DNA of 64,000 nucleotides from Virgisporangium aliadipatigenens (GTDB taxonomy: Bacteria; Actinomycetota; Actinomycetes; Mycobacteriales; Micromonosporaceae): the NCBI RefSeq assembly GCF_016863615.1, contig NZ_BOPF01000026.1, forward strand, positions 1 through 64,000. Direction: 5' to 3'. The notes beneath the pieces were generated by a model. That model was given only the letters and a program-made list of their open reading frames with translations. It was not told where the DNA came from and did not search any database. Below are positions 8,807 to 31,586 of this stretch, one piece after another. How positions within the stretch are numbered: the first letter of the stretch is position 1; each line of letters opens with the position of its first letter. The translations under genes and the position numbers were made by a program.

Positions 8807-9496
8807 TCAGGGCATTCTGACCGTGAGCCGCAGAACGGGGCCTTCCGGAGGGTTGAACGGCAGGGCTACCAACGGAACCTCGAAGCGGTTGACTTTATTG
8901 ATCAGCGCCTCGAGGAGATGCTGCTCTGCGACGTCGACCGTGTTCGGTTCACCGTTCTGCCCAGCCAGGCCCGACGTCGTGACCCCACCAAGGTCGTTGT
9001 GGCTGAGCTTGGCGGATGCCACGAAATAGCCGTCCGGGTGCTGGTGCACCCAGTACGGGACGAAGAGCGTGGCAATGCCCCGGAACCGGCCCCACATCCC
9101 GTCGATCCGGCCGACCAGCTGCTGAGCTTCGGCAACGATCGCGGCCTCCATGCGGGTCCGCTGCCTGTACCTCTCCTTGCTGGGCAGGTGGGGAGCGACA
9201 CGTTCAGGTGTCCTGATGAGTTCCTTCAGGCGGGCGAGGCTCGCCTTGAGGTCAGCGATCTGCAGCTGCACCTGCTCCGCCTCGCCGCGGTCAAGCGGTC
9301 GCGACTTCACCGTGTTGGAAAACCAGCGCCGGCTGACCGTTACGTGCGCCATGCCTACCGCGCTGAGGTGGCACAATATCGACACAAGAGCACGGTCGAC
9401 GTCCGCGACGCCCGGCAGATTCCCCGTCCCTGTGAGCAGCTGGCGAGCATCAACGACATCGTGCGCGACCTGCGCAGCGATGTCCAGGTTCTCCAT
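8807..9496 (-). CDS. hypothetical protein, 229 aa
   Basis: 229 residues from an ATG (MENLDIAAQVAHDVVDARQL). I do not recognise the family. The middle is charged and helical (EAEQVQLQIADLKASLARLKEL, then KERYRQRTRMEAAIVAEAQQ), probably a short coiled coil. The C-terminal part is more beta-like (GYFVASAKLSHNDLGG, VPLVALPFNPPEGPVLRL). No signal peptide or membrane segment. Codon use is less extreme in GC than in flanking genes, which may hint at acquisition. It stands alone between a gene-poor stretch and a divergent secreted hydrolase. Confidence 0.65.
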   Translation of the reverse strand: MENLDIAAQVAHDVVDARQLLTGTGNLPGVADVDRALVSILCHLSAVGMAHVTVSRRWFSNTVKSRPLDRGEAEQVQLQIADLKASLARLKELIRTPERVAPHLPSKERYRQRTRMEAAIVAEAQQLVGRIDGMWGRFRGIATLFVPYWVHQHPDGYFVASAKLSHNDLGGVTTSGLAGQNGEPNTVDVAEQHLLEALINKVNRFEVPLVALPFNPPEGPVLRLTVRMP

Positions 9497-9774
9497 CTGG
9501 GCAGGTTACTGCACGCAACGTCGTGACACGAGCATGGTCGATGTGAGGCTGTTCGAGGTGTTGTTCCCCGGTTGGCGTCGGTGCGGCAGACGACGCGGCG
9601 GTGCCCTGCGTGCGCAAGTCTGGCCGGTCGGGTCCATGACCGCTGCGAACGGCAGCTCGCCGACACCGCTGTGGCCGGTCAGGAGTACTGCGCCGCCGAA
9701 GGCCGTTGGTGCTACCCCCACTTAGGGGCCGGTCCCCGATGTGTTCTTCGCAAAGGTGCACCAGGGTCGGGAAC

Positions 9775-10887
9775 ATGCGAATACCGACGTTTGCGGCGGT
9801 GCTGCTCATCGCGGCCGTCATGGTGCTGGTCGCGCCCGGACCCGCGACCGCCGAGCCCACCGTCCACAGTGGATTGTCCCTGCCCCCGCCGACCGGCCCG
9901 TTGCACACCGCGCGTGCCGTGCGCCACCTCGTCGACGAGTCGCGCCCGGATCCCTGGGTGCCGACCGAACGCCGGCAGCTGATGCTCTCCGTCTGGTATC
10001 CGGCGCGGCACGACGACGGGCCGACCGCGCCCTACCTGAGCCCGGCGGAGTCCCGGCTGTTCATGTCGCGGCTGACGGCGCCGGGTGTGCCGCCGGAGAT
10101 CCTGAGCACCGTCGCCACCCACTCCACTGTGGACACTCCCGCGAAACCGCGCCCCGGCGGGTGGCCGGTCGTGGTGCTCTCACCCGGGTTCAGCTTTCCG
10201 CGGGCGACCCTCACCGGGCTCGCCGAGGACCTCGCCTCGCGCGGGTACGTGGTCGTCGGCGTCGACCACACCTACGAGGCGTTCGGCGTCACGCTCCCCG
10301 ACGGGCGGGTCACCGGGTGCGTGGCCTGCGAGGTGCCGGGGCTTTCGGGCGAGCGGGTGGCCGGCGGGCGGGCGCGGGACGTGTCGTTCGTGCTCGACCG
10401 GCTGCCGAGCCTCGGGGTGCCGGTGGATCCGCACCGGATCGCGATGGTGGGCCACTCGATGGGCGGCGCCGCCGCACTGGCCACGATGCTCGCCGATCCC
10501 CGCGTCGACGTGGGCGTCAACCTGGACGGCACCTTCCATCCCGCGTTGCCGCCGTCCGGCATGCCCAGGCCGTTCCTCATGATGGGCAACGAGGAGCACG
10601 GACAGCCCGGCGCGGAACCCACCCGGACCTGGGACACGACCTGGGCGAATCTGTCGGGCTGGAAGCGGTGGCTCAGCGTCACCGGGACCACCCACTCGTC
10701 CTTCACCGACCTCGCCGTCCTGGCCGACCAGCTCGGCCTCCCGATCCAGGAGCTTTCGGGGGAACGGGCCACCGAGATCACGCGGACCTACGTGGCCGCG
10801 GTGCTGGACCGCCACCTGCGCCGAATCCCGCAGCCGCTGCTCAACGGGGGGTCCCACCGGTATCCGGAGGTGATCTTCCAGCCCTGA
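9775..10887 (+). CDS. secreted alpha/beta hydrolase, PAF-acetylhydrolase-like
   Basis: 370 residues. The ATG at 9775 begins a signal peptide (RIPTFAAVLLIAAVMVLVA ending near ATA). The mature part is an alpha/beta hydrolase of the platelet-activating-factor acetylhydrolase/dienelactone hydrolase type: WPVVVLSPGFSF, a nucleophile elbow GHSMGGAAAL, and a late histidine in TGTTHSSFTDLAV. It probably hydrolyses esters outside the cell; the substrate cannot be told. Carries two copies of the TCCACnGTGGA palindrome (9863 and 10123). About 20 bp before the peptide deformylase gene, with no obvious functional link. Confidence 0.85.
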   Translation: MRIPTFAAVLLIAAVMVLVAPGPATAEPTVHSGLSLPPPTGPLHTARAVRHLVDESRPDPWVPTERRQLMLSVWYPARHDDGPTAPYLSPAESRLFMSRLTAPGVPPEILSTVATHSTVDTPAKPRPGGWPVVVLSPGFSFPRATLTGLAEDLASRGYVVVGVDHTYEAFGVTLPDGRVTGCVACEVPGLSGERVAGGRARDVSFVLDRLPSLGVPVDPHRIAMVGHSMGGAAALATMLADPRVDVGVNLDGTFHPALPPSGMPRPFLMMGNEEHGQPGAEPTRTWDTTWANLSGWKRWLSVTGTTHSSFTDLAVLADQLGLPIQELSGERATEITRTYVAAVLDRHLRRIPQPLLNGGSHRYPEVIFQP

Positions 10888-11432: not shown

Positions 11433-13400
11433 ATGAGCATCCAGTTGCCCGAACGGGTCGACAACCCGGAGCGGGCCCGCGCGAAGCCGCCCCGTGGCCG
11501 GCTGCCCCGCTGGCTCCTCGCGCACCGCGTCCAGCCCGCCGGCCCGGCCGCGGGCGAGGCGCACACCACCGAGCAGGCCTGGTGGAAGGTGATGTGCCTG
11601 ACCGGCGTCGACTACTTCTCGACGCTCGCCTACCTGCCGGCGATCGCGGCGCTCGCCGCCGGCCTGCTCTCGCCGCTCGCGACGCTGCTCATCGTGGCAC
11701 TGACCCTCTTCGGCATGCTGCCGATGTACCGGCGGGTCGCGAAGGAGAGCCCGCACGGCGCCGGTTCGGTGGCGATGCTGGAGGACCTGCTGCCGTTCTG
11801 GTGGGGCAAGCTGTTCGTGCTGGCGCTGCTCGGCTTCGTGGCGACGTCGTGGATCGTCACGATCACGCTCTCGGCCGCCGACGCCGGCGTGCACCTGCTG
11901 GAGAACCCGTACGCGCCGCACTTCGTCGAGGGCCACGCCGTGGCGCTCGTGGTGATCCTGCTGCTGGTGCTCGGCGGGGTGTTCCTCATGGGGTTCAACG
12001 AGGCGGTCGGGGTGGCCATCCCGCTCGTCGCCGTCTTCCTGGTGCTCAACGCCACGGTCGTCGTCGTGGGGCTGGTGGACATCGCCGGGTCGCCCTCCCG
12101 GATCGGCGACTGGTGGTCGGCGGCGGGCTCGGGCGGCGACGTGGTCGGGCCCGCGATCCTGGCCTTTCCGCTGCTGGTGCTGGGCCTGTCCGGGTTCGAG
12201 ACCGGGGTCAGCATGATGCCCCTGGTGAAGGCCGAGGGCGCGGACCCCGAGGCGAAGCTCGCCGACCGCGTCCGCAACACCCGCCGGCTGCTCACGGTCG
12301 CCGCGCTGGTCATGAGCGCCTACCTGATCGCGACCAGCATCGTGACGACGCTGCTGATCCCGCAGGAGAAGTTCGCCGAGGGCGGTGAGGCCAACGGGCG
12401 CGCCCTCGCCTACCTGGCGCACGAACGCCTCGGCGAGATCTTCGGCACCGTCTACGACGTCTCCACCATCCTGATCCTGTGGTTCGCCGGCGCCTCCGCC
12501 ATGGCCGGCCTGATCAACATCGTGCCGCGCTACCTGCCCGGCTACGGCATGGCGCCCGACTGGGCCCGGGCGGTGCGCCCGGTCGTGCTGGTCTACACGG
12601 CGATCAGCATCGTGATCACGATCGCGTTCGGCGCCGACGTCAACGCCCAGGCCGGCGCCTACGCCACCGGCATCCTCGCGATGATGGTCTCGGGCGCGTT
12701 CGCCGTCACGGTCAGCGCGGTGCGCCGCCGGCAGCGCCCCGCGATCGCCGGGTTCGGCACGCTCACGCTGGTGCTCATCTACGCCCTCGCCGAGAACATC
12801 CGCGAGAAGCCGGACGGGATCGCCATCTCGGCGATGTTCATCGCGGGGATCGTCGTCATCTCGCTGATCTCCCGGGTGGCCCGCACCACCGAGCTGCGCG
12901 CCGACCACATCGAGTTCGACGAGACGGCCCGCCGGTTCGTCGACCAGTCCATCGCCCACGACGGCGAACTGAACCTGGTCGCCAACCGTCGCAGCGCCGG
13001 CGACGCCGCCGTCGAGTACGACGCCAAGGAACGCGAACAGCGCGGCCTGAACCCGTTGCCGCGCAACGCCGACGTCATCTTCCTGGAGATCGACGTGGTC
13101 GACCCGTCCACGTTCCAGGGGGTGCTCGCGGTGCGCGGCGTCGAGGTCGAGGCACACCGGGTGCTGCGCGCGCAGGCCCCCGCCGCCCCGAACGCCATCG
13201 CCGCCGTCCTGCTCGCCCTGCGCGACGGGACCGGGGTCCGGCCGCACTGCCACTTCGAGTGGGCCGAGGGGAGCCCGCTGGTGCACATGCTGCGCTACGT
13301 CCTGCTCGGGCGCGGGGACACCGCTCCGGTGGTGCGGGAGATCATCCGCCAGGTGGAACACGACCCGGGTCGCCGTCCCGTCGTGCACGTCGGCGGATAG
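11433..13400 (+). CDS. APC-superfamily amino acid/polyamine permease with cytosolic C-terminal domain
   Basis: 655 residues from an ATG. After a basic N-terminal tail of ~45 residues come about 12 hydrophobic segments, the first containing [21 protein letters not shown], as in APC permeases. From roughly residue 480 the protein becomes hydrophilic ([20 protein letters not shown]) and ends in a ~150-residue soluble domain ([40 protein letters not shown]). That long tail is larger than in simple transporters and may be regulatory. Substrate unknown; an amino acid or related cation is the family expectation. Confidence 0.85.
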
Positions 13401-23276: not shown

Positions 23277-23813
23277 TCACCCGCGCGCGGGCGTTGCGCG
23301 GGGCAGCGTCGGCCCGCCCGAAAGCACCATCCCGTCGCCGTCCACCAGGGCGAACGCCGGATACGCGGTGACCGCGAACGCCCGCGCCAGCGGCCCGTCC
23401 TCGTCCGTCTCGCACACGACCGTGCCGGCCACCTCGGACAGCCGGCGGCACATGTCCTCCGCGGCCGCGCCGCTGCCGACGACGACGGCGAGCACCCGCC
23501 CGGCGCCGCGCACCTCGTCGACGAACTCCGGCAGCCGCTTCTCGCACGCCGGGCAGGTCGTGGAGAAGAAGCCGACGACCGTGGTGCCGCCGGCGAGGTC
23601 GGCGCGGCTCACGGCGCGACCGTCCACTGTGGTCGCCGCGTACTCGCCGACCGTCCCACCCGTGGTGACGATGCCCGGCCCGAGCGGATCGGCGGGCACC
23701 CGCGACAGCAGTTCGGTGTGCTCGCGCAGCCGCCTGATCACGCCGAGCGTCAGGAACAGATCGAACGCGACCAGTGCGGTGAGCAGGACGACAGCGGCAA
23801 CGAGGAACGGCAT
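23277..23813 (-). CDS. TlpA/MauD-like membrane-anchored thioredoxin
   Basis: 178 residues from the ATG at 23813. No ribosome site precedes it, but a TACGGT -10 element lies 6 bp upstream, so the message is probably leaderless; a GTG at 23834 in the same frame is unlikely. Residues 1-26 form one membrane anchor. The external thioredoxin domain holds the redox pair C87-C90 (FFSTTCPACEKRLPEF) and a cis-proline region (VTAYPAFALVDGDG). Such proteins make, break or transfer disulfides outside the membrane. Its promoter matches that of the Cys-rich peptide gene at 31546, so I infer a role in that peptide's disulfides. Confidence 0.85.
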   Translation of the reverse strand: MPFLVAAVVLLTALVAFDLFLTLGVIRRLREHTELLSRVPADPLGPGIVTTGGTVGEYAATTVDGRAVSRADLAGGTTVVGFFSTTCPACEKRLPEFVDEVRGAGRVLAVVVGSGAAAEDMCRRLSEVAGTVVCETDEDGPLARAFAVTAYPAFALVDGDGMVLSGGPTLPRATPARG

Positions 23814-23819
23814 CCGCCG

Positions 23820-23852
23820 ACCGTACGCGGGCACCTGTACAGCGGCGATACA
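23820..23852 (-). promoter_or_regulatory. SARP-type promoter of the thioredoxin gene (shared with SARP gene)
   Basis: On the minus strand: TGTATCG (23846-23852), 4 bp, TGTACAG (23835-23841), 9 bp, TACGGT (23820-23825), 6 bp, ATG at 23813. Repeats with 11-bp pitch ending close to the -10 are the known pattern for SARP activators. The peptide promoter at 31554-31586 has the same parts and spacing. On the plus strand a TATGCT -10 (23858-23863) could drive the SARP gene, so the site may also mediate autoregulation. Confidence 0.7.
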
Positions 23853-23898
23853 TCGAATATGCTTCGCACTCGTCGGACGTCGTTACGGGGGTGACGCG

Positions 23899-26883
23899 AT
23901 GACGTGGACCTATCGGGTGCTGGGCCCGATGCAGGTGTGCCGGGACGGCGCGCCGGTGCCCGTTCCGGCCGCCAAGCGGCGCATCCTGCTGTCCTACCTG
24001 CTGATGAAGGCCAACGAACCGGTCATCATCGACGACCTCGTCGAGGAGATCTGGGCCGGTTCGCCACCCGCGTCGGCGACCGCCAATGTGCGCACGTACG
24101 TCGCCGGGCTGCGGCGTTCGCTCAGTGACGGGGCCGGCGCCTCGCCGATCCTGGCCCGGCCGGGCGGCTACGAGCTGCGCGTGGCCTCGTCCCAGCTCGA
24201 CGTCAGCGAGGTGCGCGAACGGGTGCTGCGGGCCCGGGCGGTGGCCGGCAGCGTGCCGTTCGACGCGGCGCGGCTGTACGAGCTGGCGCTGGAGGCGTGG
24301 CGCGGGGAGAGCCTCGCCGACGTGGCCGTGGGGCCGGCGCTCGCGGAGTACGCGGCCCGCCTGGAGGAGGAGCGGCGGGTCATCGTCGAGGACCTGGTGG
24401 AGCTGAAGCTGGCGCTCGGCCGGGTCACCGAGATCGTGCCGTTGCTGCGCCGGTTCGTCACGGACAACCCGTTGCGGGAACGCGCGCAGGGTCAGCTCAT
24501 GCTCGCGCTCTACCGGTGCGGCGACGCGTCGGCGTCGCTGGAGGTGTTCGCGCGGGCCCGGGCGGCGCTGGTCGACCAGTTGGGCCTGGAGCCAGGGCCG
24601 GATCTGGTGCTGCTGCACCGCGCGATCCTGGAACGGGACCCGGCCCTGGATCCGGCCGCGCCGGCCGTCACACTGTCCACATCGGACAGACCGGTGCCGT
24701 TTCTCACGCCGCCGGACGTCGCCGACTTCACCGGCCGCGCGGAGACGGTGGCGCGCTGCGTGGCGCTGCTGGAGCAGGGCCACGCGACGCTTCGCGTGCT
24801 CGCCGTGTCCGGGCCGCCCGGCGTGGGAAAGTCCGCGCTGGCCGTGCATGTCGCGCACCGGCTGCGGGCGCGGTTCCCCGACGGGCAGCTCTACGCCGAC
24901 CTCGGCGGCGACCGCAGCGTCCCGGCGCGCCCCGGCGACGTGCTCGGCCTGTTTCTGCGCGCGCTCGGCGTGCCGCCGGCGCGGCTGCCGGAGGACCCCG
25001 ACGAGCGCCTCGGCCTCCTGCGCACCGAACTCGCCGAGCGCCGCGTGCTCGTGGTGCTCGACAACGCCGCCGACGCCGCGCAGGTGCGCGCGCTGCTGCC
25101 GAGCGCGGGCGGCTGCGCGGTTCTGGTGACCGGGCGGGCGCGCCTCGCGGGGTTGGCCGGCGCGGCGTTCGTGGACCTGGACACGTTCACGCCGGCGGAG
25201 GCGGGCGCGCTATTCGCCGCGGTCGTGTCGCCGGCACGCGCCGGGGACACCGCCGCCGTCGCCGAGATCGTGCGGCTGTGCGGCTTTCTCCCGCTCGCCG
25301 TGCGCATCGCCGCCGCCCGCGCGGCCGGCGAGTCCCGGTACCCGTTGGCGGCGCTCGCCGGGCGGCTGCGGGACGAGCGCCGCCGCCTCGCCGAGCTGAC
25401 CGTCGGCGACCTCGACGTGCGGGCCAGCCTCGCGACCGCCGACGCGTCGCTGCCGCCGGAGGCCCGCCGCCTGTTGCGGATCCTGGCCGCGCTCGACCTT
25501 CCCGACGTCACCGAGGAGGCCGTCCCCGACGGCGCCGTCCGTCAGCTGGTCGCCGCGCGCCTTCTGGAGGACCAGGGTCCGGACGCCACCGGCCGCGCCC
25601 GTTACCGCTTCCATGACCTGGTCCGGCTTTTCGCGGTCGAACGGGCTGAGTGCGAACTACCCGCCGCCGAGCGACGCGCCGCCTTGCGAGAGGTGTGCGC
25701 CCGCCTGCTCGCGCGGGCCACCGACGCCGACGCCCGCCTGGAACGCCGCACCGTCGCACCGATCCCTTACACCGCAACGGTTCCCACGGGGGACGACGAC
25801 CCGGTGCGCTGGTTCGAGGCCGAACGGCACGTGCTCGTCGCCGCCGTCCACCGGGCCGCGCGGGCCGGACTCGCCGATGCGGCGTGGCGGCTCGCGGCGG
25901 CGCTGCACGCGTTCTGCGAGCTGTACGGCTACTACGCGGACGCGGTCGACACGCATCGGGCCGCGCTGGCGGCGTGCCGGGCGGCGGGTGTGCGGTTGGG
26001 CGTCGCGGTGCTGCTGCGCAACCTCGCCGACCTGCACGTGTCGGGGCGCGGGTTCACCCTCGACGACAAGCTGGCGTGGGCGTCCGAGGCCCGCGACCTG
26101 CTGGTCGAACTGCGCGAGCCGGCCGGTGCCGCCGACGCCTGGCTCAGCTGCGCCGACGTGCACCGCGCCCGCGGCGAGTACGAGGAGGCGTTGCGCTGCC
26201 TCGCGGCGAGCCTCGACGCGGCCCGGCAGGTGGGGTACCGGCTGGGGGAGCTGCACGTGCACCAGATGACCGGGATGGTGCACCGGGCGCGCGGGCGAAC
26301 GGATCTGGCCGGCGAGTGCGCGGAGGCGGCGCTGGCCGTCGCCAGGGAGGTGGGCAGCCCCCGGGACGAGAGCGTCGCGCTGGGGATGCTCGGCCTGCTC
26401 GCGGCGTCCGGCGGCGACCACGCGACCGCGGCGGAACGCTTCGCCCGCGGGCACGCCGTGGCGACGGCCTCCGGCGACCCGTTGCAGGAGGCGTTCATGC
26501 TGGCGCATCTGGGATCCGCCTACGCGACGCTGGGCCGCCGGGACGCCGCCTCCGTCCTCGGTCGCGCGTTGGTGCGCAGCCGCGAACAGGGGTCCGCGTT
26601 CGGCGAGGCGTTGGCGCTGCTGGGACTCGGCGAACTGGCCGTCGCGCAGGACCGGCCCGACGAGGCGGTCGAGCACCTCGACGCGGCGGGTGTGCTGTGG
26701 CGCCGGTGCGGAACGCCGTTCCCGGAGGCGCGCACGTTGCGGGTGTTGGGTTCGGCGCACGCGGCGCGGGGTGACGTCGCGGGCGCGCGCGACGCGTGGA
26801 CCGCCGCGCGGGACCTGTTCCACCGCCTGGGGAACGACGACGCGGCCCACGACCTCGACCAACTCCTGAAAGCGGAGGCCTGA
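23899..26883 (+). CDS. SARP-family regulator with NB-ARC and TPR domains (AfsR-like)
   Basis: 994 residues from the ATG at 23899 (GGGGGTGA 4-6 bp upstream). Residues ~1-90 form an OmpR-type winged helix (YRVLGPMQVCRDGAPVPVP, KRRILLSYLLMKANEPV). Residues ~95-250 are the bacterial transcriptional activation domain (ERAQGQLMLALYRCGDASAS). An NB-ARC ATPase follows with Walker A SGPPGVGKSAL (K311) and RVLVVLDNAADAAQVRALLP. From ~620 are tetratricopeptide-like repeats. Such activators bind direct repeats upstream of specialised-metabolite and peptide genes. Repeats of that type occur before the adjacent thioredoxin gene and the peptide gene at 31546. Confidence 0.92.
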   Translation: MTWTYRVLGPMQVCRDGAPVPVPAAKRRILLSYLLMKANEPVIIDDLVEEIWAGSPPASATANVRTYVAGLRRSLSDGAGASPILARPGGYELRVASSQLDVSEVRERVLRARAVAGSVPFDAARLYELALEAWRGESLADVAVGPALAEYAARLEEERRVIVEDLVELKLALGRVTEIVPLLRRFVTDNPLRERAQGQLMLALYRCGDASASLEVFARARAALVDQLGLEPGPDLVLLHRAILERDPALDPAAPAVTLSTSDRPVPFLTPPDVADFTGRAETVARCVALLEQGHATLRVLAVSGPPGVGKSALAVHVAHRLRARFPDGQLYADLGGDRSVPARPGDVLGLFLRALGVPPARLPEDPDERLGLLRTELAERRVLVVLDNAADAAQVRALLPSAGGCAVLVTGRARLAGLAGAAFVDLDTFTPAEAGALFAAVVSPARAGDTAAVAEIVRLCGFLPLAVRIAAARAAGESRYPLAALAGRLRDERRRLAELTVGDLDVRASLATADASLPPEARRLLRILAALDLPDVTEEAVPDGAVRQLVAARLLEDQGPDATGRARYRFHDLVRLFAVERAECELPAAERRAALREVCARLLARATDADARLERRTVAPIPYTATVPTGDDDPVRWFEAERHVLVAAVHRAARAGLADAAWRLAAALHAFCELYGYYADAVDTHRAALAACRAAGVRLGVAVLLRNLADLHVSGRGFTLDDKLAWASEARDLLVELREPAGAADAWLSCADVHRARGEYEEALRCLAASLDAARQVGYRLGELHVHQMTGMVHRARGRTDLAGECAEAALAVAREVGSPRDESVALGMLGLLAASGGDHATAAERFARGHAVATASGDPLQEAFMLAHLGSAYATLGRRDAASVLGRALVRSREQGSAFGEALALLGLGELAVAQDRPDEAVEHLDAAGVLWRRCGTPFPEARTLRVLGSAHAARGDVAGARDAWTAARDLFHRLGNDDAAHDLDQLLKAEA

Positions 26884-26976
26884 CCCCACCTTCATTCGTT
26901 CCGCGAGGCATGGAACCACCTCCGTCGGTCACTGCCTTAGTAGGGCAGCAGATTCGGTGGGCGATGGGAGCGTGTG

Positions 26977-28086
26977 ATGACGCAGCGCATCAGAGAGTTG
27001 CTCGACAGCGCGGTGGAGCATGTGGAGCCGCAGGTGAAGGACCCGGTACCGGCAGTAGTACAACGCGCCCGCAGCCAGCGGCTGCGGGCCGTGGCGGCCG
27101 GGGCGGTGGCGTGCGCCACCCTGCTCGCAGGGGGCGTTGCCGTGGCTTCCATGTCGGCGCGGGACGCTGCGCCGGAGACGGCGAGCCCGGTCGGCGGCCG
27201 GCCCCCGACACCTCGGCTGGTCGACGGCAAGATCGTGGCCGGTGGGGTGGTCATACCCGTGCCGGCGGGCTGGCGGGTGGTCACGCCCGACTCACCGGAG
27301 TGGCGGCGGATCGAGCCCGACACGCCCAACTGCGAGACCTTGGAAAACACCGTGGTCATCGCCGGTCCCGACGACCACGGCTGCCCGCTCGCCCGGATCG
27401 AGATCCGGGGTCGACGCACCCCCTTCCCGATGGGACAAGGTGAGCTCGGAACCGGTGGGAAAGCCCTGTACCTCATGGCGCCGCGGATGCTGACGCTGGC
27501 GGGTGGGGAACCGGCCTGGCTGGCCACGGGCACGACCGACGATGTCCACAACGGCGAGAGGCCACCCGGCTACGGCTACCACAACACCCTCGTGATCCCC
27601 TGGGCGCAGGTCTCCATCGACCTGCGGTTCGACGGCGCGGCGCAGCGGCGGTTCATCGACACCGTGCGGACCACGCCCGAACACGACGGCCGGCTCGTGC
27701 TGCCGAAGAGCGTCGCGGTCGCAACCCTGGACCCACCGGCCCCCGACCCGCGAACGGTCCCGGATACGCACCGAAAGACCACGGACCCGAACACCATTGC
27801 CGCCGTGCTGCGGCTGCTGGGCAGCCAGGACGCCGTTGCGGACAACCGGCGCGCCTGCGCCACCGAGGAGCAGCCGACCGCCCGTCTCACCCTGGACACC
27901 GTTGACGCACCGCCGCCGGCGACACCCGGCGTGCTGCCGCCCTCCGATCCGGCGGGTGGCCTTACATCGGTCATCATCTCCTTTGACGACGACTGCCGGG
28001 AGGCCGTTTCGTCGGACGGCGGCCGGGTGCGGCTCAGCGCTGAGGCGCTGGTCGAGCTGCAGCGGCTGTTCGGGATCCGCCCGTGA
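26977..28086 (+). CDS. single-pass membrane protein, candidate anti-sigma partner of the adjacent SigE-type factor
   Basis: 369 residues from the ATG at 26977 (GGGAG 7 bp upstream). Residues 1-36 are charged (QRIRELLDSAVEHVEPQVKD), 37-58 one membrane segment (AVAAGAVACATLLAGGVAVA), and the rest an extracellular domain of no family I recognise (AVVQRARSQR before the membrane; LRFDGAAQRRFIDTVRTTPE outside). Its stop overlaps the GTG of the sigma factor (coupled translation). A short cytoplasmic tail plus outer sensor domain next to a sigma gene suggests an anti-sigma or sensor role, but no zinc-binding anti-sigma motif is visible. The order (membrane gene first) is opposite to the common one. 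Confidence 0.75.
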   Translation: MTQRIRELLDSAVEHVEPQVKDPVPAVVQRARSQRLRAVAAGAVACATLLAGGVAVASMSARDAAPETASPVGGRPPTPRLVDGKIVAGGVVIPVPAGWRVVTPDSPEWRRIEPDTPNCETLENTVVIAGPDDHGCPLARIEIRGRRTPFPMGQGELGTGGKALYLMAPRMLTLAGGEPAWLATGTTDDVHNGERPPGYGYHNTLVIPWAQVSIDLRFDGAAQRRFIDTVRTTPEHDGRLVLPKSVAVATLDPPAPDPRTVPDTHRKTTDPNTIAAVLRLLGSQDAVADNRRACATEEQPTARLTLDTVDAPPPATPGVLPPSDPAGGLTSVIISFDDDCREAVSSDGGRVRLSAEALVELQRLFGIRP

Positions 28087-28688
28087 CGAGCGAGGACCGC
28101 AAGGGCGCCTTCGCCGAATTCGTCGGCGCGCGGTACCCCGCGCTGGTGCGGTACGGCGCGCTGCTCACCGCCGACCGTGGGTACGGCGAGGACCTGGCCC
28201 AGGACGCGCTGGTCAAGACGTACCGGGCGTGGGGGCGGTTGCATCCGCACGGTGACCCGGAGGCGTACACCCGGCGGGTGATGGCCCGTGCGGCCTGGCG
28301 GGCCGGCCGGCGCTTCTGGTGGCGGGAACTGCCCGCCGCGGTGCTGCCCGAGCCCCGGCCGGCCGACCCGTACGACGGCCTGGACACCGCGCACCTGGTC
28401 CTCGCCGCGCTGCGCCGGCTACCGCCACGACAGCGGATCGTACTGCTGCTGCGGTATTGGGCCGGCCTGTCCGAACGCGAGATCGCCGAGGAACTCGGCT
28501 GCTCGGCCGGCACCGTCAAGAGCCGCGCCAGCCGCGCCATCGCCGCACTCGGCACCGACGGGCCGCTCGCCCAGACCTTCGGCGCAGGTGCGACCGGCAC
28601 CGACCGCCCGGCCGGGACCGCGGAGAGAGGCCCGGCTCATGGCCGGCCGCTGACCGCCGCACGCTCCACCGAGCAGCTTCGGCAGTAG
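28083..28688 (+). CDS. SigE-family ECF RNA polymerase sigma factor
   Basis: 201 residues from a GTG overlapping the upstream stop. Region 2: FAEFVGARYPALVRYGALLT and GYGEDLAQDALVKTYRAW. Region 4: LRRLPPRQRIVLLLRYWAGLSE and IAEELGCSAGTVKSRASRA, the DNA-binding helix-turn-helix. This matches the small SigE-type sigma factors abundant in actinomycetes. The last ~40 residues are Gly/Thr/Arg-rich with no known role. It would direct polymerase to a small regulon, possibly gated by the upstream membrane protein. Confidence 0.92.
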   Translation: MTSEDRKGAFAEFVGARYPALVRYGALLTADRGYGEDLAQDALVKTYRAWGRLHPHGDPEAYTRRVMARAAWRAGRRFWWRELPAAVLPEPRPADPYDGLDTAHLVLAALRRLPPRQRIVLLLRYWAGLSEREIAEELGCSAGTVKSRASRAIAALGTDGPLAQTFGAGATGTDRPAGTAERGPAHGRPLTAARSTEQLRQ

Positions 28689-28699
28689 CCACAGGGGAC

Positions 28700-28748
28700 G
28701 GTGGGAGGTGCGGGTGGCCGGCTACGGGCTACCCGCATTCCTCCCACC
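28700..28748. terminator. hairpin between convergent sigma-factor and S26-peptidase genes
   Basis: GGTGGGAGGTGCGGGT (28700-28715) can pair with ACCCGCA (28731-28737) plus CCTCCCACC (28740-28748), with a 2-nt bulge and a ~15-nt loop. It lies between two convergent stops (28688 and 28791), so it can end transcription from both sides. Confidence 0.6.
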
Positions 28749-28790
28749 CCCTCGTCCGGACCCGCGGAGACGGCCGCGCCGCAACATCTG

Positions 28791-29264
28791 TCACCGGCGG
28801 CCGTGAGCGCGGGTCAGCGTGCGCACCGCGACGCCGAGCACACTCTCCAACGGCAGATAGCCGAGCTGCTTGGAGTCGTAGCTGCGCGCCCCGCCGTCGC
28901 CGAGCACGACCACGCTGCCCGTGGGCACCCGCTCCCCGGCGGCCGTCGCGAGCGCGGGCACGTGACGCGGCACCGGATCCCCGGGCAGGGCGGCGACGCG
29001 TTTGATGAGCCACCGCTCCCCGGCGCCGGACCCCGGCTCGGGCTTCCGAGGGGAGGGCTCGGCGAGGACGACCACGTCGCCGGTGCGCAGCCGGCGGGGC
29101 GGCACGCGGCGCACGAGCACGCGGTCGCCGTCGTCATAGGTGGGCCGCATCGAGCCGCCGGTTATGTCGACGCTGACGTACCGGCGGCGCACCAACGCCA
29201 CTGCACCGAGCGCCACCGCTCCCAGGGGCGTCAGGAGCGCGGCGAGGACGAGGGCGGGCGTCAC
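28791..29264 (-). CDS. S26-family signal peptidase, probable leader peptidase of the peptide operon
   Basis: 157 residues from a GTG overlapping the ABC exporter stop by 4 bp. One N-terminal membrane segment (LAALLTPLGAVALGAVALV), then the catalytic serine S38 in the SGGSM-like box (DITGGSMRPTYDDGDRVLV), the general-base lysine K88 (WLIKRVAALPGD) and the closing box VVVLGDGGARSYDSKQLGY. All parts of a type I signal peptidase are present. At 157 residues it is shorter than housekeeping LepB. Its place after an ABC exporter and Cys-rich peptides with an Ala-X-Ala-like site before the first Cys suggests a dedicated processing role. Confidence 0.9.
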   Translation of the reverse strand: MTPALVLAALLTPLGAVALGAVALVRRRYVSVDITGGSMRPTYDDGDRVLVRRVPPRRLRTGDVVVLAEPSPRKPEPGSGAGERWLIKRVAALPGDPVPRHVPALATAAGERVPTGSVVVLGDGGARSYDSKQLGYLPLESVLGVAVRTLTRAHGRR

Positions 29265-31120
29265 GGCATGACGGGATCGCGGTAGCCGGCCGACTGCAGC
29301 TCGAACAGTTCCGCGTACAGGCCGCCGGCGGCGACGAGCGCGTCGTGCGTGCCGGACTCCGCGACGACACCCTCGGAGAGGACGGCGATGGTGTCGGCGT
29401 CGCGGATGGCGTTCAGGCGGTGCGAGATGAGCACGCTGGTGCGCCCGGCCCGGTGGCGGCGCAGTCCACTGTGGACCTCGTGCTCGGCGGCGGCGTCGAG
29501 GCCGGCGCTCGGTTCGTCGAGGATCAGCAGCGAACGCTCGTCGCGCATGTACGCCCGGGCCAACGCGACCCGCTGCCACTGGCCGCCGGAGAGCACCACC
29601 CCGGTCTCCGGGTCGTCGCGGTCGGCCGTGCTGAGGAAGATGCGGCTCAGCATCGTGTCGTAGCCGTCGGGGAGGCGTTCGAGCACACCGTCGACGCCGG
29701 CCCGGGCGGCGGCCGCCTCGACCGGGCCCCGCGCGGCGGCCGGATCGTCGAGGAGCCGCGCGTCGCCGACGGCGATGTTCTCGGCGGCGGTCAGCTCGTA
29801 GGACATGAAGTCCTGGAACACCACGCCGATCCGCTCCCGCAGCTGCCCGAGGTCGAACTCCCGCACGTCGACGCCGTCCCACAGCACCGCCCCGCGCTCG
29901 GGGTCGTAGAACCGGCACAGCAGCTTCACCAGGGTGCTCTTGCCGGCGCCGTTGAGACCCACCAGCGCCGTGGCCCGGCCGGCCTCGACGCTCAGCGTGA
30001 CGCCGCGCAGCACCCAGGGCAGTTCGGGCGCGTAGCGGAACCACACGTCGCGCAGCTCCACCCGGTCGCGCAGCGGCGGCACGGGCCGGTTGCCCTGCGG
30101 CAGGTCCGCTCCGGCGCGCACCACGTGCTCGTAGTGGTCGAAGACCAGCAGGGTCTGCTGCCCGGTGCCGATCGCGTGGACCGCCGTGCTGAGCGCCCCC
30201 TGCACCCCGGCGACGGCCGCCACGAGAACGGCCACGTCGCCGATGCTGAGCCGCCCCGCGCGCGCCGCGAACACCGCCCAGACGAGCCCGCCGCCGGCCG
30301 TCAGCGCGCCGAGCACGGCCAGTGCCGCCTGCACCCGCAGTTCACGCACGTCGGTGCGCCTGTTCTCGCGGTCGATGGCGTGCATCTCGGCGCGCATCCG
30401 CAGCCCGAGGAACCCGCTCAACCCGAACATGCGCACCTCCTTCGCGGCCGTCACGCTGGTCAGCAGCTGCGCGTAGAACAGCTCGCGGCGGGTGGAGTGG
30501 CTCAGTTCCCAGAACATGCGCGCGCGGACGCGGCCGATCGCCAGTTCCGCGTGCAGGGTCGGCACGGCCGCGACGGCCACCACGGCGAGCAACCACGGAT
30601 TGAGCACGGCGAGCGTGCCGAGGAACCCGGTGACGGTCAGCGCGGCCTGGCTTAGGGAGAGCCCGCTGGTGACGACGTCGGCGGGCGCGTGCGTGGCGTT
30701 TCCGGCCACCTGGAGCCGGTCGTGGAACGCCGGATCCTCGAACCGCGCTAGCCCGCCGAGCCGGCCCACGGCGGCGAACATCCGCTGCTTCGCGGCGAGC
30801 GTCACGCGCCGGCTCAACTGCCGGTCGACGAACCCGCCCAGCTGCGGCGTGACGGCGGTCAGCACACCGGCCGCGGCGAGCGCGCAGACCGGTGCGACCA
30901 GCGCCGCGGACGGCCGGTCCGGGTCGGCGACGATGTCGAGCACGGTCTTGGTGAGCCACGCGGTCGCGACCGGCAGCGCGCCGCCCGTGACGGTGGTCGC
31001 GAGACGCGCGGCGAGCAGCGGCGCGGCCGCCCGACGGGCGTAGCCGAGCGCGATGGCCGCGTGGCGCGCCGCGTCCCGCGCGCCGAGCCGGTCCCGTGGC
31101 GTGTCATCCATGCGCGTCAT
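29261..31120 (-). CDS. ABC exporter (fused permease-ATPase), probable Cys-rich peptide exporter
   Basis: 619 residues; ATG at 31120 has GGAG 4-5 bp upstream. The N-terminal half is an ABC type-1 exporter membrane domain with about six segments. The C-terminal half has Walker A LVGLNGAGKSTLVKLLCRFY, Q-loop VFQDFMSYEL, signature VLSGGQWQRVALARAY, Walker B SLLILDEPSAGLD and H-loop VLISHRLNAIRDAD. No N-terminal C39 peptidase domain is present, so leader removal must be done by another protein; the S26 peptidase encoded next is the obvious candidate. Located just after two tandem Cys-rich peptide frames. Confidence 0.9.
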   Translation of the reverse strand: MTRMDDTPRDRLGARDAARHAAIALGYARRAAAPLLAARLATTVTGGALPVATAWLTKTVLDIVADPDRPSAALVAPVCALAAAGVLTAVTPQLGGFVDRQLSRRVTLAAKQRMFAAVGRLGGLARFEDPAFHDRLQVAGNATHAPADVVTSGLSLSQAALTVTGFLGTLAVLNPWLLAVVAVAAVPTLHAELAIGRVRARMFWELSHSTRRELFYAQLLTSVTAAKEVRMFGLSGFLGLRMRAEMHAIDRENRRTDVRELRVQAALAVLGALTAGGGLVWAVFAARAGRLSIGDVAVLVAAVAGVQGALSTAVHAIGTGQQTLLVFDHYEHVVRAGADLPQGNRPVPPLRDRVELRDVWFRYAPELPWVLRGVTLSVEAGRATALVGLNGAGKSTLVKLLCRFYDPERGAVLWDGVDVREFDLGQLRERIGVVFQDFMSYELTAAENIAVGDARLLDDPAAARGPVEAAAARAGVDGVLERLPDGYDTMLSRIFLSTADRDDPETGVVLSGGQWQRVALARAYMRDERSLLILDEPSAGLDAAAEHEVHSGLRRHRAGRTSVLISHRLNAIRDADTIAVLSEGVVAESGTHDALVAAGGLYAELFELQSAGYRDPVMP

Positions 31121-31135
31121 TGAACTCCATCGGTG

Positions 31136-31165
31136 CCGTGGGGCGGCCCGACGACCGCCCCACGG
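31136..31165 (-). terminator. intra-operon hairpin between peptide genes and exporter
   Basis: Perfect 11-bp inverted repeat: CCGTGGGGCGG (31136-31146) and CCGCCCCACGG (31155-31165) around an 8-nt loop. It lies between the end of the second peptide frame (31191) and the exporter start (31120). No T-run follows. In many peptide operons such a structure lets most transcripts end after the precursor gene, giving excess precursor over exporter. Confidence 0.6.
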
Positions 31166-31190
31166 TTGCGCGGAAGAACGGAAGAACGGG

Positions 31191-31331
31191 TCAGCAGCCG
31201 CCGACGATGTGCGACGAGCAACGGTCGTCGCAGCTCGCGAGAACGTGGCGGCGGTAATGGAAGAGCAGCCCGCCGACGCACTTGCCGAACTCGTTCGTGT
31301 GCGACAGGCAGGCGCCCCGGACCGCGGTCAC
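31191..31331 (-). CDS. second Cys-rich peptide core, 46 aa if started at GTG
   Basis: From a GTG at 31331 the frame encodes 46 residues beginning MTAVRGACLSHT. From the first Cys region on it aligns without gaps over 41 residues to the peptide encoded just upstream (shared Cys spacing, FGKC versus FVRC, HVLASCDDRC versus HILASCDERC, final GC versus RC). It has five Cys; the third of the six positions is Arg. It lacks a leader of its own. Its frame is exactly -1 relative to the first peptide and stays open through the first gene's stop, so it may be the second core of a tandem precursor read by frameshift, or a degenerate copy. Confidence 0.55.
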   Translation of the reverse strand: MTAVRGACLSHTNEFGKCVGGLLFHYRRHVLASCDDRCSSHIVGGC

Positions 31332-31357
31332 CCCCCGGCCCGGGACGCCCGGGTGGG

Positions 31358-31546
31358 TCAGGGGCAGCGGCCGATGCTGACCCGCGTGCAGCGCTCGTCG
31401 CAGCTGGCCAGGATGTGACAGGTGTACCGGTAGAGGACGATGTTGATACAGCGGACGAACGTGTAGGTCGACGGCTGGCAGGCCGCCCGCGCGGTCTTCT
31501 TCGGCACGACCATGCCCAGAAGGCGGTCGGCGATCGTGTTCATCAT
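31358..31546 (-). CDS. Cys-rich secreted peptide precursor (RiPP/bacteriocin-like)
   Basis: 62 residues from the ATG at 31546; TACGGT 7 bp upstream and no ribosome site suggest a leaderless message. Leader: MMNTIADRLLGMVVPKKT, with a small hydrophobic patch, then ARA-AC (residues 19-23), an Ala-X-Ala-like cleavage site directly before the first Cys. The core from C23 has six Cys with spacing 9, 9, 5, 3 and 7 intervening residues (CQPSTYTFVRC, then TCHILASCDERC) and ends RCP. Six Cys suit three disulfides or thioether rings, but no modifying enzyme (cyclase, dehydratase) is nearby. Followed by a paralogous core, ABC exporter and S26 peptidase. I do not recognise a named family. Confidence 0.7.
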   Translation of the reverse strand: MMNTIADRLLGMVVPKKTARAACQPSTYTFVRCINIVLYRYTCHILASCDERCTRVSIGRCP

Positions 31547-31553
31547 GCCGGGG

Positions 31554-31586
31554 ACCGTAGAAGAGCGCACATACAGCGCCGATACA
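31554..31586 (-). promoter_or_regulatory. SARP-type promoter of the Cys-rich peptide operon
   Basis: On the minus strand: TGTATCG (31580-31586), 4 bp, TGTATGT (31569-31575), 9 bp, TACGGT (31554-31559), 7 bp, ATG at 31546. Repeat pitch 11 bp. The thioredoxin promoter at 23820-23852 has the same first repeat, the same -10 and the same spacings. The pairing to the SARP gene at 23899 is inference. Confidence 0.7.

Follow-up and report, generated by a model that had tools for sequence, protein, structure and literature searches.

The 64,000-nucleotide stretch analysed here (hereafter the window) spans positions 1 to 64,000 of contig NZ_BOPF01000026.1 of Virgisporangium aliadipatigenens (Micromonosporaceae; assembly GCF_016863615.1). 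An initial annotation, made from the letters alone, had singled out positions 23,277 to 31,546 as a candidate undescribed system for a cysteine-rich peptide, comprising a precursor with a second, paralogous core, an ATP-binding cassette (ABC) exporter, an S26 peptidase, a thioredoxin and a SARP regulator. The features of this locus are collected in Table 1. The precursor is present as described, and its junction reads ...KKTARA|ACQ..., that is, an A-x-A motif followed directly by the core. The exporter was recognised through Pfam ABC_tran and, as had been claimed, no C39 peptidase domain was found in it by the Pfam scan. Its frame is overlapped by 4 bp (29261-29264) by that of the S26 protease, which matches Peptidase_S26 with an E-value of 1.8e-20 (154 aa scanned). 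The thioredoxin gene does lie some 7.7 kb from the peptide locus, divergent from the SARP gene beside it, and an ATG at 23813 fits its homologues better than the GTG that opens the frame. The SARP frame, scanned as a longer open frame from 23368, contains BTAD (E-value 1.3e-32), NB-ARC and TPR domains.

Table 1. Features of the peptide locus and of the distant thioredoxin and regulator genes, in window coordinates.
Feature	Position	Strand	Description
TlpA/MauD-like membrane-anchored thioredoxin gene	23277-23834	minus	open frame from GTG; CPAC motif; Pfam Redoxin/AhpC-TSA
Direct repeat before TlpA gene	23838-23852	minus	TGTATCGCCGCTGTA; TGTATC-N5-TGTA
SARP regulator gene (AfsR type)	23899-26883	plus	BTAD, NB-ARC, TPR
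S26 signal-peptidase-like protease gene	28791-29264	minus	Ser box GGSMRP and Lys box IKRV present
ABC exporter gene	29261-31120	minus	619 aa; permease-ATPase fusion; Pfam ABC_tran
Second core	31191-31328	minus	possible GTG start; no leader; 5 Cys; frame other than that of core 1
Precursor peptide gene	31358-31546	minus	62 codons plus stop; leader MMNTIADRLLGMVVPKKTARA, common to homologues; core ACQPSTYTFVRCINIVLYRYTCHILASCDERCTRVSIGRCP (6 Cys)
Direct repeat before precursor	31572-31586	minus	TGTATCGGCGCTGTA; TGTATC-N5-TGTA

A first search of 61 genomes (60 relatives and V. aliadipatigenens itself) returned precursor matches in eight, V. aliadipatigenens included, and all eight close orthologue pairs tested gave ratios of nonsynonymous to synonymous substitution (dN/dS) of about 0.5 or less, so the precursor frames are real beyond chance. 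At 16 of the 18 places returned by this unfiltered search, one type of leader ended in A-x-A directly before the core, while the Cys-rich cores themselves differed greatly; the second core of the window and L022 did not fit this pattern. An alignment of 21 precursors yielded the consensus leader xRxLxxLADRxLxxxVPKxxAxA, and a profile run on the loci in hand collected 98 precursors, 96 of them unique, once matches below 18 bits (L044 among them) and L173, which lacks A-x-A, had been dropped. A.A was itself a selection criterion in the 96-precursor set and for most rows of the 21, so its invariance there adds little; starts and cuts in the 96 were scripted, so that leader lengths are partly set by construction and some cuts fall two residues early. 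In the few leaders that contain GG, it lies upstream of A-x-A and not directly before the core. A conserved leader joined to a variable core in a short gene is the layout of precursors of ribosomally synthesised and post-translationally modified peptides (RiPPs), and it is the layout found here, with no significant match to family models for 11 precursors searched against NCBIfam and 21 against Pfam.

The difference between leader and core is also seen within a single genome, the one with most precursor matches (59). Identity among 34 of its precursors is 49% in the leaders but 29% in the cores; with Cys removed the identity of the cores is 21%, versus 18% for shuffled cores. One core type departs from this pattern: CQPxC...PMCCRFTxTRFKWRTCNSxC.CWW..DC, unlike other cores, is nearly constant over four Micromonosporaceae genera (L131, L133, L134, L135, L136, L140, L030 and L037, with a variant in L150).

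In 16 regions around the first homologues, a TlpA gene, a close exporter, an S26 match and a precursor were found together in five (L030, L033, L036, L037 and L041). A search of genome contigs with an alignment of six exporters returned at least 80 loci, whose scores fell into two groups among the matches listed: 25 loci at 610-919 bits (the named loci below) and 55 at 454 bits or less. The initial annotation had made its reading depend on the peptide frames being kept where the exporter and peptidase are kept, and had asked for a conserved neighbourhood with TlpA and SARP genes; at the 25 close-exporter loci we found a precursor in 22, TlpA in 25, S26 in 23, MauE in 20 and SARP in 11. Around the 55 distant exporters there was no precursor (E-value below 0.2), TlpA, MauE or SARP, and one weak S26 match. 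The close exporter thus goes with precursor genes, and neither of the observations that the initial annotation had named as refuting its reading was made. Pfam named MauE in all eight neighbours that had previously been unlabelled, and among 31 S26 sequences the serine box is present in every one and SMxP...KR in 29. The 25 loci include Streptomyces, Nonomuraea, Actinomadura, Nocardiopsis, Micromonospora, Embleya, Lentzea and Amycolatopsis, as well as a cyanobacterial metagenome-assembled genome (Komarekiella).

A recognisable precursor is missing from three close-exporter loci. The region of L050 is cut by a contig edge, and L043 has no adjoining precursor, a complete locus (L202) being present elsewhere in the same genome. 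At 7400-8850 of L043 (Actinomadura barringtoniae), beside MauE-TlpA-ABC, a frame resembling an ATP-grasp RiPP enzyme by eye is preceded by a small peptide frame. In L059 (Fodinicola feengrottensis, 8950-10043), leader and Cys-rich part lie in different frames and the TlpA match is split, which may reflect decay or an assembly error.

Over 354 Micromonosporaceae genomes, precursor and exporter occurred together in 119, the precursor only in 1, the exporter only in 19 and neither in 215 (exporter E-value of at most 1e-150, 138 genomes; precursor E-value of at most 1e-3, 120 genomes; 17 precursor candidates scored per genome); a Fisher value for this co-occurrence is inflated by shared ancestry. 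The system is common in the Micromonosporaceae (exporter in 138/354) and sporadic elsewhere, the exporter being found in 2 of 396 genomes drawn from across the phylum, one of them V. aliadipatigenens itself, and, in the phylum to which the cyanobacterial locus belongs, in 1 of 244 genomes, namely the source of that locus. Relatives of the exporter occur in 29 plasmid records, many of which come from a single species and at least one of which is as large as a chromosome, and the window peptide had no match in plasmid records. The system is also present on two Streptomyces plasmid records (L205, S. clavuligerus pSCL4; L206, a plasmid of S. atratus), and it may therefore move between strains.

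That precursors can be dispersed in many copies could not have been recognised from the window alone. Six genomes picked for high counts contain 59, 34, 30, 24, 19 and 14 precursor matches, and V. aliadipatigenens contains 2 (E-value of 0.01 or lower, up to 150 candidates scored per genome). Each of 20 stretches fetched at listed places of the 59-match genome holds at least one leader-plus-Cys precursor. This genome has one exporter, overlapped by 4 bp by an S26 gene, with no precursor, TlpA or MauE nearby, and in the 34-match genome, too, the best exporter adjoins S26 with no precursor or TlpA nearby. In three further many-copy genomes (G006, G373 and G374) the exporter is accompanied by S26, TlpA and MauE, and by a recognised precursor in one of the three. 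Upstream of the orphan precursors in the 59-match genome (33 regions) no shared motif was found, the commonest words being about as frequent as in shuffled controls. We lean towards the view that several Micromonosporaceae encode tens (up to about 59) of dispersed, strongly diverged, disulfide-paired mini-proteins under one leader, served by a single ABC-S26 pair; such a genome-wide library would be comparable, on the bacterial side, to conotoxin- or defensin-type repertoires.

An exporter and a protease that accompany a peptide need not handle it: the peptides might leave through general secretion and be cut by the housekeeping signal peptidase, with the ABC-S26 pair linked to them otherwise, for instance for self-protection by efflux. 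A-x-A is the textbook motif of type I signal peptidases too, and the window S26 scores high enough to pass TIGR02227, the model of signal peptidase I. The leaders, however, show no Sec-like hydrophobic core, as 0 of 96 have a 10-residue mean hydropathy above 2 (median of the best stretch 1.17, by simple hydropathy without true signal peptides as a comparison set). Furthermore, exporter and S26 stay paired where the precursors are dispersed, and just one of the 354 genomes has a precursor without the exporter. We therefore regard the general route as improbable, and the dedicated ABC-S26 pair as the better candidate for export of the peptides.

The number of cysteines is even in 92 of the 96 cores, mostly 6 or 8 (the set includes orthologues), and in 33 of the 34 cores within the 59-match genome, although those cores differ. 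This suggests disulfides as the core modification. Cys makes up about 17% of core residues, as might also be expected if the cysteines bound metal, in the manner of metallothionein- or bufferin-like secreted chelators; a paper on copper-binding bufferin RiPPs mentions DoxX, so that related membrane proteins may occur there (PMC12452194). Even counts without any spacing common to the cores, TlpA at all 25 named loci and the absence of a metallophore-type enzyme among the 17 window proteins scanned with Pfam argue against metal binding, for which we see little likelihood. Ser and Thr together account for about 15% of core residues, and the annotation places an ATP-grasp gene within a few kb of the S. 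clavuligerus locus, which would be compatible with other modifications, such as thioethers, introduced by enzymes encoded elsewhere. The even counts favour Cys-Cys pairing instead, and the same 17 proteins include no lanthionine synthetase, YcaO or radical SAM domain, in keeping with the initial annotation, which had seen no lanthionine or other modification enzyme. Gene families other than those of exporter, TlpA/MauE, S26 and SARP were shared by at most 4/17 or 3/25 neighbourhoods (these rarer families were not identified). Further modification of this kind is, in our estimate, very improbable, and disulfides remain the favoured modification of the cores.

The initial annotation had also noted that the promoters of the peptide and thioredoxin genes match. 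At both, the units of the direct repeat are spaced by 11 bp, and TGTATC-N5-TGTA has exactly two matches in the 10.3 Mb genome, before the window precursor and before the window TlpA gene, compared with 0 for the reversed control. SARPs bind heptameric direct repeats at their target promoters, and the repeat has the form of such sites. A relaxed form of the repeat gave 17 matches in 0.98 Mb of loci, 12 of which precede a same-strand precursor start by 43-97 bp, so that the repeat recurs before precursors in the window's family. Of the other five, one precedes the window TlpA gene, two stand divergently beside the precursor in L130 and L161, one, in L030, is no more than about 150 bp away from the aligned start of the exporter, and one is at an unrelated place in L066. 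TGTATC-N5-TGTA marks one SARP lineage, since no copy turned up near the precursors of the 25 named loci or near those of L027, L029 and L039, which are linked to SARP genes. Of 15 upstream regions in SARP-linked loci, only that of L052 reached P <0.05 in a motif-free test for 11-bp repeats, and it is the specific pattern, not this test, that carries the regulatory evidence. The repeat would tie the distant TlpA gene to the peptide, with the SARP as the protein presumed to bind it.

Taken together, these data make it likely that the locus encodes a leader-guided secretion system for disulfide-rich mini-proteins. The amphipathic conserved leader (ADRLL..PK..AxA, without a Sec-like core) would bring the precursor to a dedicated ABC exporter lacking C39, and the co-encoded S26 protease would cut after A-x-A on the outer side of the membrane. 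The membrane-anchored TlpA, joined by MauE in most loci, would then form or reshuffle disulfides in the even-Cys core before its release. In the window, the AfsR-type SARP would turn on precursor and TlpA through the TGTATC-N5-TGTA direct repeat, and in some Micromonosporaceae a single ABC-S26 pair would handle tens of precursors that are scattered over the genome and differ in their cores. What the sequences themselves show is that the genes are linked and occur together, that the leader and the repeat are conserved, and that the cores vary but nearly always have an even Cys count. The observation behind the initial annotation is confirmed, and its interpretation, in which the S26 enzyme cuts the leader, the exporter secretes the peptide and the thioredoxin handles disulfides, is largely supported.

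Several points weigh against this mechanism. MauE, the usual further member of such loci, was not seen beside the window copy, and none was recognised at 5 of the 25 close-exporter loci; in the two genomes richest in precursors, the best exporter has no TlpA beside it and no clear MauE. Many relatives of TlpA are reductants, so that the TlpA reaction may run in either direction. The exporter occurs without a recognised precursor in 19 of the 354 genomes (with 17 candidates scored per genome), and some of the many-copy matches contain a stop. Only 18 of the 55 distant-exporter loci used as a contrast are actinobacterial, many of the others coming from other phyla. The 0.98 Mb locus set searched with the relaxed repeat was chosen for holding precursors, and the confinement of the strict repeat and the outcome of the motif-free test belong on the same side. 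Finally, docking, cleavage, transport, disulfides, SARP binding and biological role, from precursor to product, are what we infer from sequence comparison.

Judged by analogy with other hypervariable Cys-rich secreted peptides, the mini-proteins most probably serve antagonism or interact in some other way with variable partners. That no immunity gene was recognised makes bacteriocins a weaker reading and would be less surprising if the peptides were developmental or signalling molecules of actinomycetes and not weapons. SARP genes adjoin the system, many sporulating actinomycete genera carry it, and one core type is nearly constant across genera, all of which would suit signalling. The cores within one genome are, however, barely above shuffled similarity, a better fit to diverse partners, and we consider a signalling role unlikely, if with some chance of being correct; interaction with variable partners is preferred.

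An AlphaFold model of the window peptide, computed from 12 divergent sequences only, has a confident three-stranded sheet core (blocks of 83-94) and a poor leader (52-54). Comparison with solved structures found no significant relative of the window peptide (E-values of 0.5 and 0.82 in one search, and nothing at or below 0.001 in another). Laterosporulins, Cys-rich bacteriocins of Brevibacillus that are small and beta-rich like the predicted core and leaderless according to the PDB title, are among the weak Foldseek matches of this core, with template-modelling (TM) scores by target length of 0.50-0.51 and an E-value of 1.2, ranking below unrelated large proteins.

Three better-known systems share parts of this arrangement. 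Double-glycine-leader bacteriocins are small Cys-rich exported peptides whose leader is removed by a C39 domain linked to the exporter and which are accompanied by a thiol-disulfide oxidoreductase. The present system resembles them in its small Cys-rich, apparently exported peptide, presumed exporter-linked leader removal and redox helper, but it has no C39 domain, A-x-A instead of GG, and a separate S26 protease; to our knowledge, an S26-type leader protease has not been described for such exporters. Prochlorosin-type systems likewise combine one conserved leader, hypervariable cores and many dispersed precursors with one machine, and the present system differs from them in its leader, in its redox helpers and in the lack of a lanthionine synthetase among the window proteins scanned. 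In methylamine dehydrogenase maturation, MauE acts together with a MauD/TlpA-like protein, as it would here, although the present substrate is a small peptide encoded next to an ABC exporter and S26. MauE has been speculated to help form the disulfides of the beta-subunit of that enzyme (van der Palen 1997, as cited in PMC7794033), which provides a precedent for a TlpA-MauE redox pair.

In the open literature we found nothing direct on the system except the decRiPPter study (Kloosterman et al. 2020; PMC7794033). It describes three Streptomyces mauE candidate families, one also with mauD, whose predicted precursors have at least 8 Cys and whose clusters were filtered for transporter, peptidase and regulator; its authors propose a role in modifying the precursors, and S. 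viridosporus T7A is one of the strains named. MauE stands at 20 of the 25 close-exporter loci, as it does in those families, and was not seen beside the window copy. S. viridosporus NRRL 2414 contains two loci of the present family, L054 (6-Cys core) and L201 (10-Cys core), both with MauE, and on this ground the system was probably glimpsed in the decRiPPter study; identity is likely. The claim that the system is undescribed therefore has to be narrowed, given that mauE candidates exist. It would stand for the leader, the ABC-S26 pair with A-x-A, regulation by the SARP repeat, the dispersed copies and the spread beyond Streptomyces, none of which appears in the available decRiPPter text (PMC7794033).

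This analysis outlines a large family of apparently secreted Cys-rich peptides, whose members in an industrial strain are publicly annotated as 'hypothetical protein', and the conserved leader is a handle for finding many more of them. If confirmed, the system would offer a natural leader-exporter-protease-redox kit for disulfide-rich mini-proteins and a supply of new bioactive peptides, and it would allow the study, within one genome, of how cores diversify while their leader stays fixed.

The same exporter family occurs at two other loci of the V. aliadipatigenens genome, both with MauE. One (L161, contig C34) holds precursor, S26, MauE, TlpA, ABC and SARP, and the other (L160, contig C9) holds MauE, TlpA, ABC and SARP, its only Cys-rich frame being an unrecognised one at 11671-12780 (minus strand). 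In the window, the interval between SARP and S26 (26974-28688, plus strand) carries a hypothetical gene and a gene for a SigE-family extracytoplasmic function (ECF) sigma factor (TIGR02983), convergent with S26.

The second core reported in the initial annotation is paralogous to the first (41% identity, E-value 1.2e-7), as claimed, and is probably, to judge from its sequence, the remnant of a duplicated core. The term twin peptides overstates the case: two active twins are disfavoured by the missing leader, by 5 instead of 6 Cys and by the different frame. Core 2 might still be read through ribosomal slippage or GTG initiation. No two-core precursor was found elsewhere when four core sequences were searched over the collected loci. 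S. clavuligerus pSCL4 (L205) does have a genuine tandem: two complete precursors are followed there by MauE, a TlpA-like gene (CAPC), ABC and S26, and its annotation lists the TlpA-like gene and the two peptides as hypothetical.
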